Shown: positions 2,747 through 60,096 of the stretch, in pieces
Position numbering within the stretch: position 1 is the first letter of the stretch
Layout: each line of letters begins with the position of its first letter
Source of the DNA: Pelobacter seleniigenes DSM 18267
GTDB taxonomy: Bacteria > Desulfobacterota > Desulfuromonadia > Desulfuromonadales > Geopsychrobacteraceae
NCBI RefSeq assembly: GCF_000711225.1
Contig: NZ_JOMG01000002.1
Coordinates: forward strand, 74,501-138,500
Length of the DNA stretch: 64,000 bases
Direction of reading: 5' to 3'
Made by a program: the position numbers and the translations under genes
Notes under the pieces: generated by a model
The model's database searches: none
Told to the model about the DNA's origin: nothing
Seen by the model: the letters and a program-made list of their open reading frames with translations, nothing else

Positions 2747-3366
2747 TTTTCCAAAGCTCCTTCGATCTCAGTAACCGCGGCATCAGTCAGCACCAGATAA
2801 GGGTATTTAAGAACGTCGTATACATTCACCCCTTCTGCGCGCAGGACTTTTACATTGCGCAGATTTCTGGCTGAAAGCTCAACCTTGACATCGGCCTGGT
2901 CGATAACGACCAACGCACCATCCAGCGCAAACCGCTCAATAACCTGACTGAACCGTTTGGTACTGATATCATCCAGGGCCAGATCTTTCACGACCACCAG
3001 TTTTTCGCCTTGAAAGCGAGCGGACAATGCGCTGCAAAGCGCCGCTTTCTTGACCTTCCGATTCAGCTTGAAGGAATAGGAGCGGGGCTGAGGTCCAAAC
3101 GCAACACCACCACCAACGAAATGGGGTGCGCGAATAGTACCCTGCCGTGCATTACCGGTACCTTTCTGACGATAAGGCTTCTTTGCACCACCGGCAACCG
3201 CGCTTCTGTTCTTGACCGCTGCCGTCCCCTGACGCCGAGCCGCAAGTTGATAACGAACCATGTCATGCAAAAGATATTCTTTTACTTCAGTATTAAAAAC
3301 AGTGTCCGCGAGCTCACGCTCTCCAACCTGTTTCTTGTCCTGATCATAAATTGCTACAGTTGCCAT
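2743..3366 (-). CDS. rplD: 50S ribosomal protein L4
   Basis: 207 residues, the expected length. The tunnel-lining loop region is visible as [25 protein letters not shown], followed by [18 protein letters not shown]4 binds domain I of 23S rRNA. In Escherichia coli it also represses its own S10 operon through leader RNA; here the gene sits inside a fused str-S10 operon, so that leader control is not obviously available. It overlaps rplW by four bases and follows rplC by 25 bp. Confidence 0.98.
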
Positions 3367-3391
3367 TTATCCACTCCTAAATCCGCAGCAC

Positions 3392-4015
3392 TTAAACCTT
3401 GATCCCTTTACGGATCTCGACCAGACCGTTTTTCGGTCCAGGAACGGCACCACGTACAAGGATTAAATTCTCTTCGGGCCGAACGTCGACAACAATGAGG
3501 TTTTGTGTTGTAACCCGCACATTACCCAATTGTCCAGGCATTTTCTTACCCTTGAACACTCGGGACGGCCAAGCCGAAGCACTGATGCCCCCAGGCCGAC
3601 GTTTAAACATGGAACCGTGAGTCGCCCGGCCACCGGAAAAACCCCACCGCTTCATAACGCCCTGAAATCCCTTACCCTTACTGGTACCGGTTATATCGAT
3701 CCGGTCACCGGGCTTGAACATTTCGCAGGAAACGATATCACCAACGGCGCAGTCCCCGACGGTTGAAAATTCGCGAACATGAGCAAAGGCACCCTTGCCG
3801 GCCTTTTTGAAGTGTCCCATTTCCGGCTTGTTCGCGCGCTGTGCACCAATCGCCTTGAAACCAATCTGTACAGCTTCATAGCCATCAGTTGCCGCTGTCT
3901 TCTTCTGCAGAACCGTACATGGCCCCGCTTCCAGCACAGTCACAGGAATCCGCTGCCCATCAGCAGCATAAACCTGGCTCATGCCTATCTTTTTTCCTAA
4001 CAATCCGTTGGTCAT
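3392..4015 (-). CDS. rplC: 50S ribosomal protein L3
   Basis: 207 residues, normal length. It begins MTNGLLGKKIGMSQVYAADG and contains GKGFQGVMKRWGFSGG and the FKGKKMPGQLGNVRVT signature that reaches the peptidyl-transferase centre. The central Gln of the GRATHGS / MPGQ region, a site of post-translational methylation in E. coli, is kept. It follows rpsJ by 33 bp and precedes rplD by 25 bp. Confidence 0.98.
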   Translation of the reverse strand: MTNGLLGKKIGMSQVYAADGQRIPVTVLEAGPCTVLQKKTAATDGYEAVQIGFKAIGAQRANKPEMGHFKKAGKGAFAHVREFSTVGDCAVGDIVSCEMFKPGDRIDITGTSKGKGFQGVMKRWGFSGGRATHGSMFKRRPGGISASAWPSRVFKGKKMPGQLGNVRVTTQNLIVVDVRPEENLILVRGAVPGPKNGLVEIRKGIKV

Positions 4016-4048
4016 AGTCGTGCCCTTAAATTGCGATTAAACCAAAAA

Positions 4049-4357
4049 TTAAAGCTTGATCTCAACGTCTACGCCAGCAGACAAGTCCAGCTTCATCAAA
4101 GCATCCACGGTCTGCTGAGTCGGCTCCATAATATCCAAGAGACGCTTATGCGTACGAATCTCAAACTGCTCTCGACTCTTTTTGTCGACGTGCGGACCGC
4201 GCAGCACACAGTATTTATTGATCACAGTCGGCAACGGAATGGGGCCGACCAAACGTGAACCGGTACGTTTCGTTGTATCTACAATTTCCGCAACAGCCTG
4301 GTCGAGCAGGCTGTGATCATAAGCTTTCAGACGAATTCTGATCTTCTGTGTAGACAT
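4049..4357 (-). CDS. rpsJ: 30S ribosomal protein S10 (NusE)
   Basis: 102 residues, standard length, beginning [19 protein letters not shown]. It also contains VGPIPLPT and HKRLLDI, family hallmarks. S10 belongs to the small-subunit head and doubles as transcription antitermination factor NusE, partnering NusB and NusG. It starts only 14 bp after the tufA stop codon, so there is no room for a separate S10-operon promoter or for the long S10 leader known from E. coli. The S10 operon is therefore read through from the str genes. Confidence 0.98.
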
Positions 4358-4371
4358 GTGTTTTCCTCGTA

Positions 4372-5565
4372 TTACTCGATAACTTCACTGACCACGCCGG
4401 CGCCGACAGTACGGCCGCCTTCGCGGATTGCAAAGCGCAGTTCCTTGTCCATTGCAATCGGGGTGATCAAATCAACCGTCATTGCAATATTGTCACCAGG
4501 CATAACCATTTCGGTGCCTTCCGGAAGCTCAACAATCCCGGTCACATCCGTGGTCCGGAAGTAGAACTGCGGACGATACCCTTTGAAGAACGGGGTATGA
4601 CGACCACCCTCTTCCTTGGTCAGAATATAAGCCTCGGCTTTGAACTTGGTATGCGGGGTGATGCTGCCCGGCTTAGCCAGAACCTGACCACGCTCGATGT
4701 CTTCACGCTTGACACCACGCAGCAGAATACCGACGTTGTCGCCGGCCTGACCCTGATCCAGCAGCTTGCGGAACATTTCGACACCGGTCACGACCGTTTT
4801 GGTCGTAGCTTTCATGCCGACGATTTCGACTTCTTCCTGAACTTTGACCACGCCGCTCTCAACCCGACCGGTGGCAACAGTACCACGACCGGAGATGGAG
4901 AAGACGTCTTCAACAGGCATCAGGAACGGCTTGTCAACAGCACGCTCCGGCTCGGGGATGTAGCTGTCAACAGCGTCCATCAGTTCGAGAACTTTGTTCT
5001 TGCCGATCTCGTCATCGCGACCTTCCAGAGCGGCCAGAGCGGACCCGGCAATGATCGGAATATCGTCACCCGGGAAATCATAGCTCGACAGCAGCTCACG
5101 GATTTCCATGTCGACCAGCTCGAGCAGTTCTTCGTCGTCAACCATGTCGGCCTTGTTCAGGAACACGACCATGGCCGGAACACCAACCTGACGAGCGAGC
5201 AGGATGTGCTCACGGGTCTGCGGCATCGGGCCGTCAGCAGCCGAGACCACCAGAATAGCGCCGTCCATCTGGGCAGCTCCGGTGATCATGTTCTTGACAT
5301 AGTCGGCGTGACCCGGGCAGTCAACGTGTGCATAGTGACGCTTTTCGGTCTCATATTCGACGTGGGCGGTTGCAATGGTGATACCACGCTCACGCTCTTC
5401 CGGTGCATTGTCGATCTGATCGAAAGCCTTGACTTCACCGCGGCCCATCTTTTCTGCGAGCACGGTGGTAATCGCTGCGGTCAGCGTGGTCTTGCCGTGG
5501 TCAACGTGACCGATGGTCCCGATGTTGACGTGCGGCTTTGTCCTCTCAAATTTTTCCTTGGACAT
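4372..5565 (-). CDS. tufA: Elongation factor Tu, copy A (ends VIE)
   Basis: 397 residues, a complete EF-Tu GTPase that delivers aminoacyl-tRNA to the ribosome. P-loop GHVDHGKT is at residues 19-26, followed by the DCPGH switch and the NKAD guanine-specificity motif; domains 2 and 3 run to the C-terminus. It lies in the str operon, 20 bp behind fusA. Compared with the second copy at 20731-21924 the protein differs only at the last residue (Glu here, Ala there), and only about five other base changes are visible by eye, all silent. This points to recent gene conversion between the copies. Confidence 0.98.
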
Positions 5566-20708: not shown

Positions 20709-20730
20709 AGCTTTTCACTAAGAGACCTGA

Positions 20731-21924
20731 TTACGCAATAACTTCACTGACCACGCCGGCGCCGACAGTACGGCCGCCTTCGCGGATTGCAAAGCGCAGT
20801 TCCTTGTCCATTGCAATCGGGGTGATCAGATCAACCGTCATTGCAATATTATCACCAGGCATAACCATTTCGGTGCCTTCCGGAAGCTCGACAATCCCGG
20901 TCACATCCGTGGTCCGGAAGTAGAACTGCGGACGATACCCTTTGAAGAACGGGGTATGACGACCACCCTCTTCCTTGGTCAGAATATAAGCCTCGGCTTT
21001 GAACTTGGTATGCGGGGTGATGCTGCCCGGCTTAGCCAGAACCTGACCACGCTCGATGTCTTCACGCTTGACACCACGCAGCAGAATACCGACGTTGTCG
21101 CCGGCCTGACCCTGATCCAGCAGCTTGCGGAACATTTCGACACCGGTCACGACCGTTTTGGTCGTAGCTTTCATGCCGACGATTTCGACTTCTTCCTGAA
21201 CTTTGACCACGCCGCTCTCAACCCGACCGGTGGCAACAGTACCACGACCGGAGATGGAGAAGACGTCTTCAACAGGCATCAGGAACGGCTTGTCAACAGC
21301 ACGCTCCGGCTCGGGGATGTAGCTGTCAACAGCGTCCATCAGTTCGAGAACTTTGTTCTTGCCGATCTCGTCATCGCGACCTTCCAGAGCGGCCAGAGCG
21401 GACCCGGCAATGATCGGAATATCGTCACCTGGGAAATCATAGCTCGACAGCAGCTCACGGATTTCCATGTCGACCAGCTCAAGCAGTTCTTCGTCGTCAA
21501 CCATGTCGGCCTTGTTCAGGAACACGACCATGGCCGGAACACCAACCTGACGAGCGAGCAGGATGTGCTCACGGGTCTGCGGCATCGGGCCGTCAGCAGC
21601 CGAGACCACCAGAATAGCGCCGTCCATCTGGGCAGCTCCGGTGATCATGTTCTTGACATAGTCGGCGTGACCCGGGCAGTCAACGTGTGCATAGTGACGC
21701 TTTTCGGTCTCATATTCGACGTGGGCGGTTGCAATGGTGATACCACGCTCACGCTCTTCCGGTGCATTGTCGATCTGATCGAAAGCCTTGACTTCACCGC
21801 GGCCCATCTTTTCTGCGAGCACGGTGGTAATCGCTGCGGTCAGCGTGGTCTTGCCGTGGTCAACGTGACCGATGGTCCCGATGTTGACGTGCGGCTTTGT
21901 CCTCTCAAATTTTTCCTTGGACAT
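20731..21924 (-). CDS. tufB: Elongation factor Tu, copy B (ends VIA)
   Basis: 397 residues with the same GTPase motifs as copy A (GHVDHGKT at 19-26, DCPGH, NKAD). It is preceded by the four-tRNA set Thr-Tyr-Gly-Thr, exactly the arrangement of the thrU-tyrU-glyT-thrT-tufB operon of E. coli, so the symbol tufB is justified by context. The protein differs from copy A only at the final residue. The 5' untranslated region is short (127 bp from the tRNA-Thr end) and T/A-rich, with no leader structure I recognise. Confidence 0.98.
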
Positions 21925-54814: not shown

Positions 54815-54849
54815 CCCGTTGCCCTCCGGCAACAGCAGAGTGCAACGGG
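54815..54849 (+). terminator. Hairpin behind speA
   Basis: CCCGTTGC (54815-54822) and GCAACGGG (54842-54849) form a perfect 8-bp stem right after the speA stop codon, followed by CAAGTTTTC. It probably ends speA transcription. Its right arm merges into the first bases of a fragment of the ~180-bp repeat found behind pgeF. Confidence 0.7.
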
Positions 54850-54872
54850 CAAGTTTTCAGATTGGAAACGAG
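54842..54872 (+). repeat. Fragment of the pgeF-associated structured repeat (copy A)
   Basis: 31 bases that match the left arm of the repeats at 58015-58375, including the 22-bp core beginning AAGTTTTCAG and ending GGAAACGAG, which is identical in all three copies. The flanking GAGCCGTTTGCGGAAAA also resembles the right arm, so this looks like an internally deleted element. It lies in the 105-bp gap between speA and the cytochrome b5 gene. Confidence 0.7.
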
Positions 54873-54919
54873 CCGTTTGCGGAAAAAACCTACCAGAGAA
54901 ACTTTTCAGGGAGGGACAC

Positions 54920-57215: not shown

Positions 57216-58016
57216 ATGAAACTTGTCCGTCAAGGAAAGATTTCTTTCCTGCAGCCAAAAACCATCCCCGCACAGCTCGTCGCCGGGTTCAGTACCCGCA
57301 ATGGCGGGGTCAGTCGTCCACCCTACAATTCTCTCAACCTCGGCTTCGGAACCGATGATGCAATTGCCCATGTCGAAGGCAACCGCTCAACCTTCACCCG
57401 CAGTTTCGGGCTGAGTCCGCACCAATTGCTGACCGTCAAACAGGTTCATGGCAAAGACCTGCTGCTCATCGATGAGCCGAACCTGGACCTGTCCCATTTT
57501 CTGAAAGTGGAAGTCGATGCCATCGTCACCAACCAGCCGGGGATTATGATCGGCATCCTCACCGCCGACTGCCTGCCGATCCTGATCTGGCACAAGGACC
57601 TCAAAGCGGTCGCCGCCATTCATGCCGGCTGGCGCGGGGCGGCCAACGGAATCATCGCCAAGACCATCAACACCATCACCAGTCATTTCGATTGCCCCGC
57701 CTCCGAACTCAGGGCGGCAGTCGGTCCGGGAATCGGCGCCCACAACTATGAGGTGGACCGCCCGGTACGAGACATGTTCCGCAAAGGCAGCGGTTTCTGG
57801 AAAGAGATTTCCACGGAAACCAGCCTGGGTCACTGGCAGCTTAACCTGCCCTTAAGCTGTCAGCTTCAGCTGGAAGCGCTCGGCATTGCGCCTCAGCATA
57901 TCGATGTCGCCACAGAATGCACCTGCTGTCACCCGGAACTGCTGTTTTCTCACCGGCGTGACCAGGGGGTAACCGGCAGGCAGCTCGGCTTCATCATGAT
58001 CCCTCAAGACAGCTAG
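57216..58016 (+). CDS. pgeF: Purine nucleoside phosphorylase / peptidoglycan editing factor PgeF (YfiH, multicopper-oxidase fold)
   Basis: 266 residues from the ATG at 57216 with GGAG upstream; the frame is open further back but without a ribosome site. The family's zinc site residues are in TADCLPILI, HAGWRGAA and the C-terminal CTCCHPELLFSHRRD. Related proteins phosphorolyse purine nucleosides and, in E. coli, correct peptidoglycan stem peptides. Its TAG stop lies within the AGCTAG unit boundary of the tandem repeat that follows, so the repeat may have reshaped the last codons. The rluD-pgeF order is common. Confidence 0.88.
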   Translation: MKLVRQGKISFLQPKTIPAQLVAGFSTRNGGVSRPPYNSLNLGFGTDDAIAHVEGNRSTFTRSFGLSPHQLLTVKQVHGKDLLLIDEPNLDLSHFLKVEVDAIVTNQPGIMIGILTADCLPILIWHKDLKAVAAIHAGWRGAANGIIAKTINTITSHFDCPASELRAAVGPGIGAHNYEVDRPVRDMFRKGSGFWKEISTETSLGHWQLNLPLSCQLQLEALGIAPQHIDVATECTCCHPELLFSHRRDQGVTGRQLGFIMIPQDS

Positions 58017-58190
58017 TTGGCATCCGGAAACTCCGCAGGGCAACGCATAAGTTTTCAGATTGGAAACGAGAAATTTTCCGTTGTAGCAAGGAAATCAAGA
58101 GTTTATGCGGAGGCGTAGTTCTTTACGCCGCACAATAAGCCCGCAGATTGACACCGCCACAGCGGAAAAGGGCCGTTCTGGATAATAACT
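58011..58190 (+). repeat. Structured tandem repeat, copy B (180 bp)
   Basis: First of two head-to-tail units behind pgeF. Landmarks are AGCTAG at 58011, CATCCGGAAAC at 58021-58031, the 22-bp core at 58049-58070, a 6-bp stem GGCGTA/TACGCC at 58112-58129, and CCACAGCGGAAAA near the end. By hand count roughly 90% of bases match copy C. Substitutions on both sides of the long stem mostly keep pairing. The right outer arm (GTTCTGGAT) has decayed relative to copy C. Confidence 0.85.
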
Positions 58191-58372
58191 AGCTAGATGC
58201 CATCCGGAAACTCCGCAGGGCAACGGCTAAGTTTTCAGATTGGAAACGAGCAATTTTTCGTTGTGGCAAGGAAATCAAGGGGTTACGCGGAGGCGTAGTA
58301 CTTTACGCCGCACAAGAAAACCCGCAGATTGACACCACCACAGCGGAAAAGGGCCGTTTCCGGATGATAACT
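58191..58372 (+). repeat. Structured tandem repeat, copy C (182 bp)
   Basis: Second unit, directly abutting copy B. It has perfect 11-bp outer inverted arms (CATCCGGAAAC at 58201-58211, GTTTCCGGATG at 58356-58366). Inside are a 13-bp stem with two G-U pairs (58254-58266 with 58338-58350), a GGGTT/AACCC stem, and a central hairpin at 58292-58309. The whole folds as one nested cruciform-like structure with side hairpin 58231-58247. No open reading frame of note is inside. Confidence 0.87.
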
Positions 58373-58650
58373 AGCTAACCGCGACAGGTGCTCCCCCCCA
58401 TTCCGGCAACCGGGAAAAATCTGGCAAACAGGATTTTTCGTTTTTTTCCAGGACACGACAGAGCTTGTTCAGAATTTTGTCAGAAAGATTCGCTATACTC
58501 GTGTCATAAAGATTGCACGGCTAGACTTCATAAATAGTTCCGGAGGGGGGAGGCCCCCATCGTTCATAGCGACGATGGGGGCCTTCACCTGTGAGCACCC
58601 GGAAGAACTCCCGTCTCCGGCTGGTCTTTTTCCCGCAGTCTCAAGCGGCG
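58373..58650. other. Non-coding region between the repeats and trkH
   Basis: A stretch of 278 bp with no gene. It holds A/T-rich DNA with a TATACT-like box at about 58494 but no matching -35 element. A perfect 12-bp stem (AGGCCCCCATCG and CGATGGGGGCCT, 58551-58584) follows. The stem lies 66 bp past the trkH stop codon, so it may act in its 3' end, but neither strand has a U-run after it. Confidence 0.45.
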
Positions 58651-60096
58651 TTATTTACGCCAGAAAGACGGGAAGAACAGAACCAGCACAGTAAACAATT
58701 CCAAACGGCCCATCAGCATACAGACAATCAGTACGGTTTTGCCCAAGGCCGGCACATGGGCAAAATTATCAATGGGGCCAACGGTACCGATGCCGGGACC
58801 GATGTTTCCGAGACAGGCAATCACTGCCGCCCCGGATGAAACCAGATCCATGCCGCTGGCCGCTACCAGTAATGAACCGCCGACAAACACGCTGATAAAC
58901 AGCGCGAAGAAACCCAGAATCGACTGCATGACCTCTTTATCAACCGGCCGGTTGCCGAGCTTGACCAGGCGGATCGCACGGGGATGAATCAGCCGGAACA
59001 GTTGGACCTGGGCATGCTTGAACAACAGCAGAATCCGCGCGACCTTCATACCGCCACCAGTCGAGCCGGCGCAGCCGCCGACAAACATCAGCAGCACCAG
59101 AATATACTGGGTCACCACCGGCCAGAGTTCGAAATCAGCGGTCCCGAAACCGGTGGTGGTGATAATCGAGGCCACTTGGAAAGATGAATAACGCAGGTTT
59201 TCCACCAGGCCGCGGTAGACATCTTCGGACCAGTTGAAGTACATGACCACCGCCGTGGCAACCACAATGATGCCCAGATAGACGCGCAATTCCTCGCTGC
59301 CGAAGAAATCCCGCACCCGCCCGCGCAGCACCTGGAAATGCAGGGCAAAGTTGACCCCGGCCAGAATCATGAACAGGGTAACGACCGCATCGATATAGCC
59401 GCTGTTATACGCCCCGACCGACGCGTTGCGGGTGGAAAACCCGCCGGTTGCGAGGGTGGCAAAGGAATGACAGAGGGCATCAAAGAAGGACATCCCGCCA
59501 AACATCAGCAGGACGGTCTCCACCGAGGTGAGCAGAAAATAGACCCCCCAGAGCATCTTGGCGGTGTCCTGGATGCGCGGTTTCAGCCGATCGGCCGTCG
59601 GTCCGGGGACCTCGGCCTTGAACAGCTGCATACCGCCGACCCCGAGCATCGGCAGAATGGCCAGGGACAGCACAATGATCCCCATTCCGCCCAGCCAGTG
59701 GGTCAGCGCCCGCCAGAACAACAGGCTCGGCGGCAGATGTTCGATCTCGCGCAGGATGGTCGAACCGGTGGTGGTAAAGCCGCTCATGGTCTCGAAAATC
59801 GCATCCAGCGGTGAAGGGATCGCCCCGGCCAGCAGATAGGGCAAAGCTCCGAATACGGCAAAGACCGTCCAGCCGAAGGTGACCACGGCAAAGCCTTCCC
59901 GGACCGACAGTTCCTGAGGGCTCCGGCAGGCAGCCATAATCAAACCGCCAACCCCGCAGCAGATCAGGGCGGAAATAACAAACGCGGACCAGACACCATC
60001 CTGATAGTAGAGGGAGAAGGGCAGCGGGATAAACAGGGTTGCGCCCAGAAAAAGCAGCAGCGAACCGAGGATGCGCAGGGTCAGCAGCAGGTTCAT
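58651..60096 (-). CDS. trkH: Trk potassium transporter, membrane subunit TrkH
   Basis: 481 residues, the usual length. The four pore-loop segments of the family are visible with their selectivity Gly/Thr patterns: MSGFTTTGST, TGGFSTRN, TTTGFGTADFE and GGCAGSTGGGMK. Ten or more membrane helices surround them. It imports potassium with protons or sodium and is gated by TrkA. It starts one base after the trkA stop codon, so the two are co-translated. Confidence 0.95.
   Translation of the reverse strand: MNLLLTLRILGSLLLFLGATLFIPLPFSLYYQDGVWSAFVISALICCGVGGLIMAACRSPQELSVREGFAVVTFGWTVFAVFGALPYLLAGAIPSPLDAIFETMSGFTTTGSTILREIEHLPPSLLFWRALTHWLGGMGIIVLSLAILPMLGVGGMQLFKAEVPGPTADRLKPRIQDTAKMLWGVYFLLTSVETVLLMFGGMSFFDALCHSFATLATGGFSTRNASVGAYNSGYIDAVVTLFMILAGVNFALHFQVLRGRVRDFFGSEELRVYLGIIVVATAVVMYFNWSEDVYRGLVENLRYSSFQVASIITTTGFGTADFELWPVVTQYILVLLMFVGGCAGSTGGGMKVARILLLFKHAQVQLFRLIHPRAIRLVKLGNRPVDKEVMQSILGFFALFISVFVGGSLLVAASGMDLVSSGAAVIACLGNIGPGIGTVGPIDNFAHVPALGKTVLIVCMLMGRLELFTVLVLFFPSFWRK

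Follow-up and report, generated by a model that had tools for sequence, protein, structure and literature searches.

The 64,000-nt stretch of Pelobacter seleniigenes DSM 18267 DNA analysed here (the window) carries, directly behind the gene pgeF, two head-to-tail units of a noncoding, strongly structured repeat, and it raises the question of what kind of sequence this is and what maintains its fold. The first-pass annotation had placed a tandem repeat of ~180 bp at positions 58011-58372, a range that is off by no more than a few bases and includes some bases of the target duplications described below, and it had offered a miniature mobile element, a structured RNA or a protein-binding cruciform as possible identities.

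The two units behind pgeF and their borders

The pgeF gene occupies positions 57216..58016 of the forward strand, counted from the first ATG of the open frame (TIGR00726 above cut-off), and the third base (G) of its TAG stop codon at 58014-58016 is also the first base of the first repeat unit. This unit, copy B (58016..58189, forward strand), scores 173.6 bits with R1, a covariance model built from 49 copies of the element, and represents an older subfamily; the following unit, copy C (58196..58371, forward strand), scores 194.1 bits and represents a young subfamily. The units are 174-176 bp long, succeed each other with a period of 180-182 bp and are 91% identical across their longest ungapped block (128 nt). 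As read from the sequence, their borders follow the order CAGCTA - unit B - TAGCTA - unit C - TAGCTA: copy B has on its left a target duplication (58010..58015) that equals TAGCTA in five of six bases and includes the first two bases of the pgeF stop codon, a single TAGCTA at 58190..58195 is shared between copies B and C, and the right target duplication of copy C lies at 58372..58377. In addition, a degenerate, internally deleted 73-nt relative is located upstream, at 54818..54890 of the forward strand (R1 26.7 bits, E 4e-5).

Among 72 aligned copies from the same genome, the nearest relatives of copy C are 96-97% identical to it, the closest of the 71 other copies to copy B is 92% identical, and copy C is only the 12th nearest to B. 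By these identities, the tandem looks like two separate insertions of different subfamilies at one target and not like a duplication. Other two- and three-unit arrays likewise have one duplication common to adjacent units; for instance, the triple tandem at C2:187532-188066 has the same shared-duplication layout as B and C. Two units of this triple tandem are 97% identical, and this pair, judged by that identity, may represent a duplication.

Copy number, insertion sites and the search for a mover

With a threshold of E 0.001, R1 matches the P. seleniigenes genome (5.09 Mb) 115 times, and 87 of these matches are 174-177 nt long; 150 of 2069 candidates were scored with R1 and further weak copies may exist, and a few of the 115 probably represent contig ends present twice or one copy detected again on the opposite strand. 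Beyond this genome, 54 of 98 genomes chosen as relatives were matched by copy C in BLAST, and R1 gave matches in 126 of 194 genomes of the class and in 47 of 296 genomes sampled from the phylum, 33 of these 47 lying outside the class (the own genome is included in all three sets). A strict pattern scan of named genomes returned at least 120 stretches, to 80 of which R1 was applied. Among the matches listed (80 records), the sources are mainly Desulfuromonadales, Deltaproteobacteria, Desulfobacterales or their families; the pattern-scan matches listed also comprise two from one Chloroflexi assembly and one from Saccharicrinis, which could be contamination. With one relative's copy as query, no match was obtained in collections of plasmids and phages.

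Both ends of the element carry the terminal inverted repeats GTNNNCATCCGGAAAC, as expected for a MITE, and the flanks carry direct repeats of 6 bp, sometimes 7 bp, with the palindromic consensus YTAGCTAR. In a mixed set of 77 copies, the duplication is exactly 6 bp long in 33 and 7 bp in three, compared with a cross-pairing expectation of ~1.7 for exact duplications of 6-7 bp. The 72 own-genome copies, selected by at least 80% identity to the consensus (15 of 87 aligned copies, some with wrong bounds, were dropped), include 35 exact duplications of 6 bp and three of 7 bp (38/72). At least five of six duplication bases match in 52 of the 72, compared with 12.5 in shuffles, and fewer than five match in the other 20. 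The target-site duplications that the first-pass annotation had proposed as a sign of mobility are therefore present, again as in MITEs, and the element further resembles MITEs in being short, noncoding, dispersed and of high copy number. From the duplications, the copy number and the scatter of copies we conclude with high confidence that the repeat is a mobile, MITE-like element.

The insertions are often found close to gene ends. In relatives, gene 3' ends lie -10 to +6 bases from the insertion in 38 of 91 cases and gene 5' ends in 5 of 81, and the corresponding numbers for the own genome are 7/38 and 1/38 (p 0.056), the -10 to +6 interval having been picked after the distances were seen. 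These counts use a simple home-made ORF picking without a gene caller and leave out 44 of 168 copies, 36 with an ORF spanning the reconstructed empty site and eight at contig edges. Orientation preference is absent both in relatives (43:43 with respect to upstream genes, 38:48 to downstream genes) and in the own genome (20:18 and 20:18).

An autonomous element with the same ends was found neither by the end-site scan of the own genome nor by terminal-repeat scans of the loci with a crude filter, and target-duplication walks from seven orphan ends revealed no autonomous partner. Exact terminal-repeat sites in the own genome number 99, of which 95 lie inside R1 copies; ~90 end sites carry one mismatch by count. 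The 8-10 kb around each of the four exact orphan ends contain remnants, ordinary genes and one IS1380-family transposase, and the 10 scanned ORFs out of 13 that have at least 110 aa include AbrB, PRC, fumarase, cytochrome, PIN and UbiA proteins and two without a match. The transposase (NF033539) is encoded near the orphan left end C4:932724, by an IS1380-family element at about 2918-4610 of the surrounding locus L312 (C4:928000-937500). Because this element has its own 14-bp ends, CCTGAATCAGTGAG and CTCACTGATTCAGG, with TATAA on both sides, we counted it as a neighbour and not as a partner; it lies ~110 bp beyond the orphan end, and its transposase may act on the repeat in trans. At another own-genome locus (L310, C4:788620-790552), an orphan left end stands 1.9 kb from a full copy with ordinary genes between them, and both adjoin TAGTTA-type sites.

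Fold, covariation and the portable core

The element is predicted to fold into a 29-nt 5' hairpin (hairpin 1) and a 140-nt stem-loop. In copy C, the predicted fold places an imperfect hairpin 1 at 58196..58224 and the long stem-loop, comprising the conserved core and an apical hairpin, at 58231..58371 (both forward strand), with the right terminal repeat GTTTCCGGATGATAAC as its 3' end. In copy B, structure transfer by alignment places hairpin 1, formed by the left terminal repeat and its inner partner, at 58016..58044 of the forward strand. All structural parts that had been noted in copy C, namely 11-bp arms (CATCCGGAAAC/GTTTCCGGATG), an inner stem of ~13 bp, GGGTT/AACCC and an apical hairpin, are present in the sequence. 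The outer arms are indeed inverted repeats and constitute the terminal inverted repeats of the element; however, in predicted folds each of them pairs with a neighbouring arm and not with the other outer arm. The main part of copy C (58240-58375) reaches -54.3 kcal/mol compared with -32.2 kcal/mol for shuffles (z -6.5). A well-kept copy from a relative, with a 13-bp hairpin and a long stem-loop, reaches -100 kcal/mol compared with -55 kcal/mol (z -11.6), and the complement of this copy folds less well (-81 kcal/mol, z -7.2).

Selection on the fold had been proposed from a comparison of the two window copies, in which a T-G wobble of C is a C-G pair in B and GGGTT/AACCC of C is replaced in B by an alternative pairing in which 7 out of 8 pairs form. 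Both changes had been read correctly; two copies prove little, and the evidence comes from a wider alignment. In the sequence-only alignment of 49 copies, 89% of pair cells are paired, compared with 40-48% for slid structures. Changes on both sides are observed in 30 of 66 pairs and double changes in 256 cells (shuffle mean 97), although the aligned copies are related and these counts are not independent events. The covariation score is 0.255 compared with 0.127 in shuffles, a value that was reached by none of 500 shuffles, and RNAalifold alone predicts 40 pairs, 18 of them with double changes. The inner-stem and apical-hairpin pairs that covary include columns 70-151, 71-150, 74-147, 88-131 and 106-112. 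By reading, the terminal repeats switch jointly between groups, being CATCCGGAAAC or CATCCATAAAT at both ends, and the Desulfobacterales copies have outer arms CATCCATAAAT in place of CATCCGGAAAC, still pairing, around the same core. Selection on the fold is thus well supported, and copies that keep the stems are found in related genomes, where the first-pass annotation had suggested looking for them. Altogether, an element without a gene has retained both its length and a fold that covaries in relatives spanning a bacterial class.

The variants at paired columns of the 72 own copies give an indication of when this selection takes place. We called variants private if present in one copy and shared if present in at least four copies, the latter cut-off being arbitrary. 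The fold is kept, by wobble or compensation, in 21 of 37 shared variants compared with 18 of 89 private ones (Fisher p 1e-4), and in 25 of 56 and 13 of 23 shared variants with cut-offs of at least three and at least six copies, respectively. Private mutations break pairs in 71 of 89 cases, and their number per column is about equal at paired and unpaired positions (0.74 and 0.80), whereas shared variants amount to 0.34 per paired vs. 0.52 per unpaired column. This pattern of private and shared variants suggests decay after insertion, which seems to be neutral, and selection of the fold among the copies that spread.

The strand on which the fold acts can be approached through mismatch types. 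Over 43 well-paired pairs of the main stem, G-T exceeds A-C by 61 to 25, with any G-T in 26 and any A-C in 16 of these pairs, which favours a folded single left-to-right strand. For all main-stem pairs the ratio is 186 to 29, with a reference fold derived there from the same strand. Hairpin 1 shows 13 G-T and 18 A-C in its eight well-paired pairs and 39 and 23 in all its pairs, and the ratios in own copies are not significant (16:7 for shared variants, p 0.09; 10:15 for private variants).

The conserved core corresponds to model positions about 47-166 (~120 nt) and also occurs separately. Units of 118-124 nt contain it but lack hairpin 1 (of 20 stretches retrieved, 19 were usable, as L506 ran off its contig and was dropped), and no clear target duplication was seen at the core-only units in these 19 stretches. 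The core is also retained in Desulfobacterales elements with other ends. In the Geobacter-type genome G126, there is a 119-bp family with the ends GGTTGTTSAAAAAYAG and the apical motif GCGGAGGCGTAGCAGCGCTACGCCGCACA or close variants; R1 scores for this family are weak (E about 7e-4 or worse), hence its kinship rests mainly on the shared apical motif. In total, R1 gave 39 mostly weak matches in G126, with E up to 0.1. Five loci of this genome (L444, L451, L452, L459 and L466) contain 137-138-nt versions of the 119-nt family with ~18 nt inserted in the apical loop.

The core lies just upstream of dapL (TIGR03542) in three genomes (G126, G425 and G047), in the opposite orientation in G126, where dapA, argG and argH are located nearby. 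Core copies in genomes of two orders (L436 and L437 in G126, L514 in G007) lie near genes that, by eye from the protein starts, are nitrogenase-accessory-like. In another case, one core copy is shared by two genomes of one genus, G099 (L487/L507) and G104 (L490/L510), and lies upstream of an argG-like gene in both; the differences between them are mostly in the apical loop and resemble replacement by another copy. At locus L412 of G126, a tmRNA gene and a group I intron match stand side by side (940-1493) and adjoin two core copies.

Proposed explanation, alternatives and known systems

We propose as the probable explanation that the repeat is a non-autonomous, MITE-like DNA element of almost constant length (176 bp), which has no gene and a conserved structured core, is moved in trans, and is helped to spread by its fold. 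A transposase acting in trans is suggested by the duplications together with the ends, and it would make a 6-bp staggered cut at the palindromic target. The element's spread would be aided by its folded form as a single strand, probably left-to-right RNA, which might, for instance, recruit or regulate the transposition machinery or keep insertions at gene 3' ends from doing harm. We infer that the fold acts as RNA in transposition, and the element makes it testable whether bacterial DNA transposition can depend on an RNA that is encoded by the element itself. In a tentative and unlikely extension, the element itself would supply a structured RNA (or folded single strand) without which its DNA transposition could not proceed, and the core would be a portable module of this kind that different transposition systems may exploit.

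Several alternatives make different use of the same observations. In an ordinary MITE, the arms would be several transposase binding sites, and paired changes would track one changing transposase and not folding. By reading, terminal-repeat-like sequence is indeed present in four arms and changes jointly between Desulfuromonadales and Desulfobacterales. Short forms also exist, some of them between duplication-like flanks, so that the interior is not always needed for copy survival: most of the four 73-nt forms retain both ends in recognisable shape, and of the four with 51-52 nt three break off at GGAAAC in the inner arm. On the other hand, pairs of the inner stem and the apical hairpin, which are unlike the terminal repeats, covary too, and genomes across the class and beyond contain the interior. 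Such wide conservation is unusual for MITEs, whose interiors usually count as filler. We consider an ordinary MITE somewhat unlikely. An improbable alternative is a structured RNA with a regulatory or 3'-end function that benefits the host, having been spread by transposition and then retained at many sites because it acts on genes nearby. The positions of the core upstream of dapL and near argG/argH and nif-like genes and the clustering of copies at gene 3' ends in relatives would suit such an RNA; however, the copies have no orientation preference relative to neighbouring genes, the core is reversed at dapL in one of the three genomes, and the private mutations of own copies mostly break pairs and are alike in density in paired and unpaired columns.

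The RNA-like covariation and the precise ends would also be compatible with a retrotransposed RNA, similar to a bacterial SINE and copied by a reverse transcriptase in trans. Nevertheless, RVT_1 matches are not associated with the element across 194 genomes (both in 66, element only in 60, reverse transcriptase only in 35, neither in 33; odds ratio 1.04, p 1.0), no RVT_1 match was obtained in 18 of the 39 genomes having 14/14 scored matches, and a palindromic duplication that is mostly fixed at 6 bp speaks for a cut-and-join reaction on DNA, which leaves this alternative extremely improbable. A protein-binding cruciform or supercoil-sensitive site in double-stranded DNA is very unlikely in our estimation. 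It agrees with the near-palindromic stems, with the stable fold of the complementary strand and with the lack of a G-T excess in the well-paired pairs of hairpin 1, but the prevalence of G-T over A-C in the main stem speaks against it, as do the mobility indicated by target duplications and the lack of a known binding protein. Thus, two of the identities originally suggested, mobile element and structured RNA, have both found support in the element, the former in its duplications, copy number and scatter and the latter in its covarying selected fold, and the cruciform has lost ground to the mismatch pattern of the main stem.

The non-autonomous MITE-like element that we propose also differs from known bacterial systems. 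REP sequences are high-copy extragenic palindromes of 20-40 nt that are thought to be moved in trans by RAYT transposases without target duplication, whereas the present element has 176 nt, terminal repeats and 6-bp target duplications. The bridge or seek RNA of IS110/IS1111 elements is a structured noncoding RNA of similar size that is tied to a mobile element; the present element differs in having a clear target duplication and no recombinase gene. Its target duplications also set it apart from single-strand elements of the IS200/IS605 type, which produce none. Rfam searches gave five tRNAs only for the window and, for the element, no match above gathering score, the best by E-value being Mcr7 with 18 bits against a gathering score of 380, and a search of 15 Geobacter-type loci gave only tmRNA, group I intron and Moco riboswitch matches. 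The model provides annotators with a means to recognise an unannotated sequence that is present ~100 times in some genomes.

The first-pass annotation had recognised no named family, which is correct for Rfam; the core, however, is similar to an RNA family that was predicted in Geobacter in 2009. Aklujkar et al. (2009; PMC2700814) report 24 predicted short RNAs in G. metallireducens with the palindrome GRCGTAGCGCTGCTACGCC, one of them between dapAB and dapL. This family, Gmet_R1, is likewise multicopy and intergenic with the central palindrome GRCGTAGCGCTGCTACGCC, which we observed in 14 of 30 G126 loci examined, and the G126 match next to dapL has surroundings close to those reported; the window copies are without GRCGTAGCGCTGCTACGCC and read GGCGTAGT(T/A)CTTTACGCC instead. 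The likeness is judged from palindrome and position and not from a published alignment, and many palindrome-family copies in G126 match the core only and have other ends. The accessible text of PMC2700814 presents these sequences as RNA elements and not as mobile DNA with target duplications. Relatives of the core have thus been seen already, as predicted RNA, and our explanation would recast this predicted RNA family as a relative of mobile DNA.

Among described mobile elements, the Geobacter uraniireducens MITE Chunjie (Chen et al., 2008, PMC2516098, as summarised in PMC10969869) has both terminal inverted repeats and direct repeats and is present in 38 copies, 178-235 bp long, and, according to PMC10969869, in 57 further partial copies. 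R1 gave only 20 matches in the genome G123, including 12 copies of 170-177 nt and three of 236-239 nt, and these lengths make an overlap with Chunjie, compared by its description only, possible. The three longer versions in G123 (L398-L400) have ~60 extra bases in the stem. The Desulfotalea-1 candidate motif, whose RNA status is marked as questionable and which has no Rfam number in the accessible account (Weinberg et al., 2010, PMC2864571), and multicopy sequences in G. bemidjiensis and P. carbinolicus (PMC2996986, PMC3543383) are also multicopy or candidate structured sequences of related bacteria, likened here by description only. In the literature covered, which lies largely outside subscription journals, no account of the element as mobile was matched to it by sequence.

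Two other features of the window were observed in passing. A strong GC-rich hairpin beginning with GGGGGAGGCCCCCATCGT is located at 58538-58604, between the repeat and the opposite-strand ORF 58651-60096; its Rfam matches are only microRNAs below gathering score, the best being mir-9193 (E 2e-4). In another part of the window, positions 4371-4670 and 20730-21029 form a 300-nt direct repeat, the copies of which are 98% identical and 16.4 kb apart.
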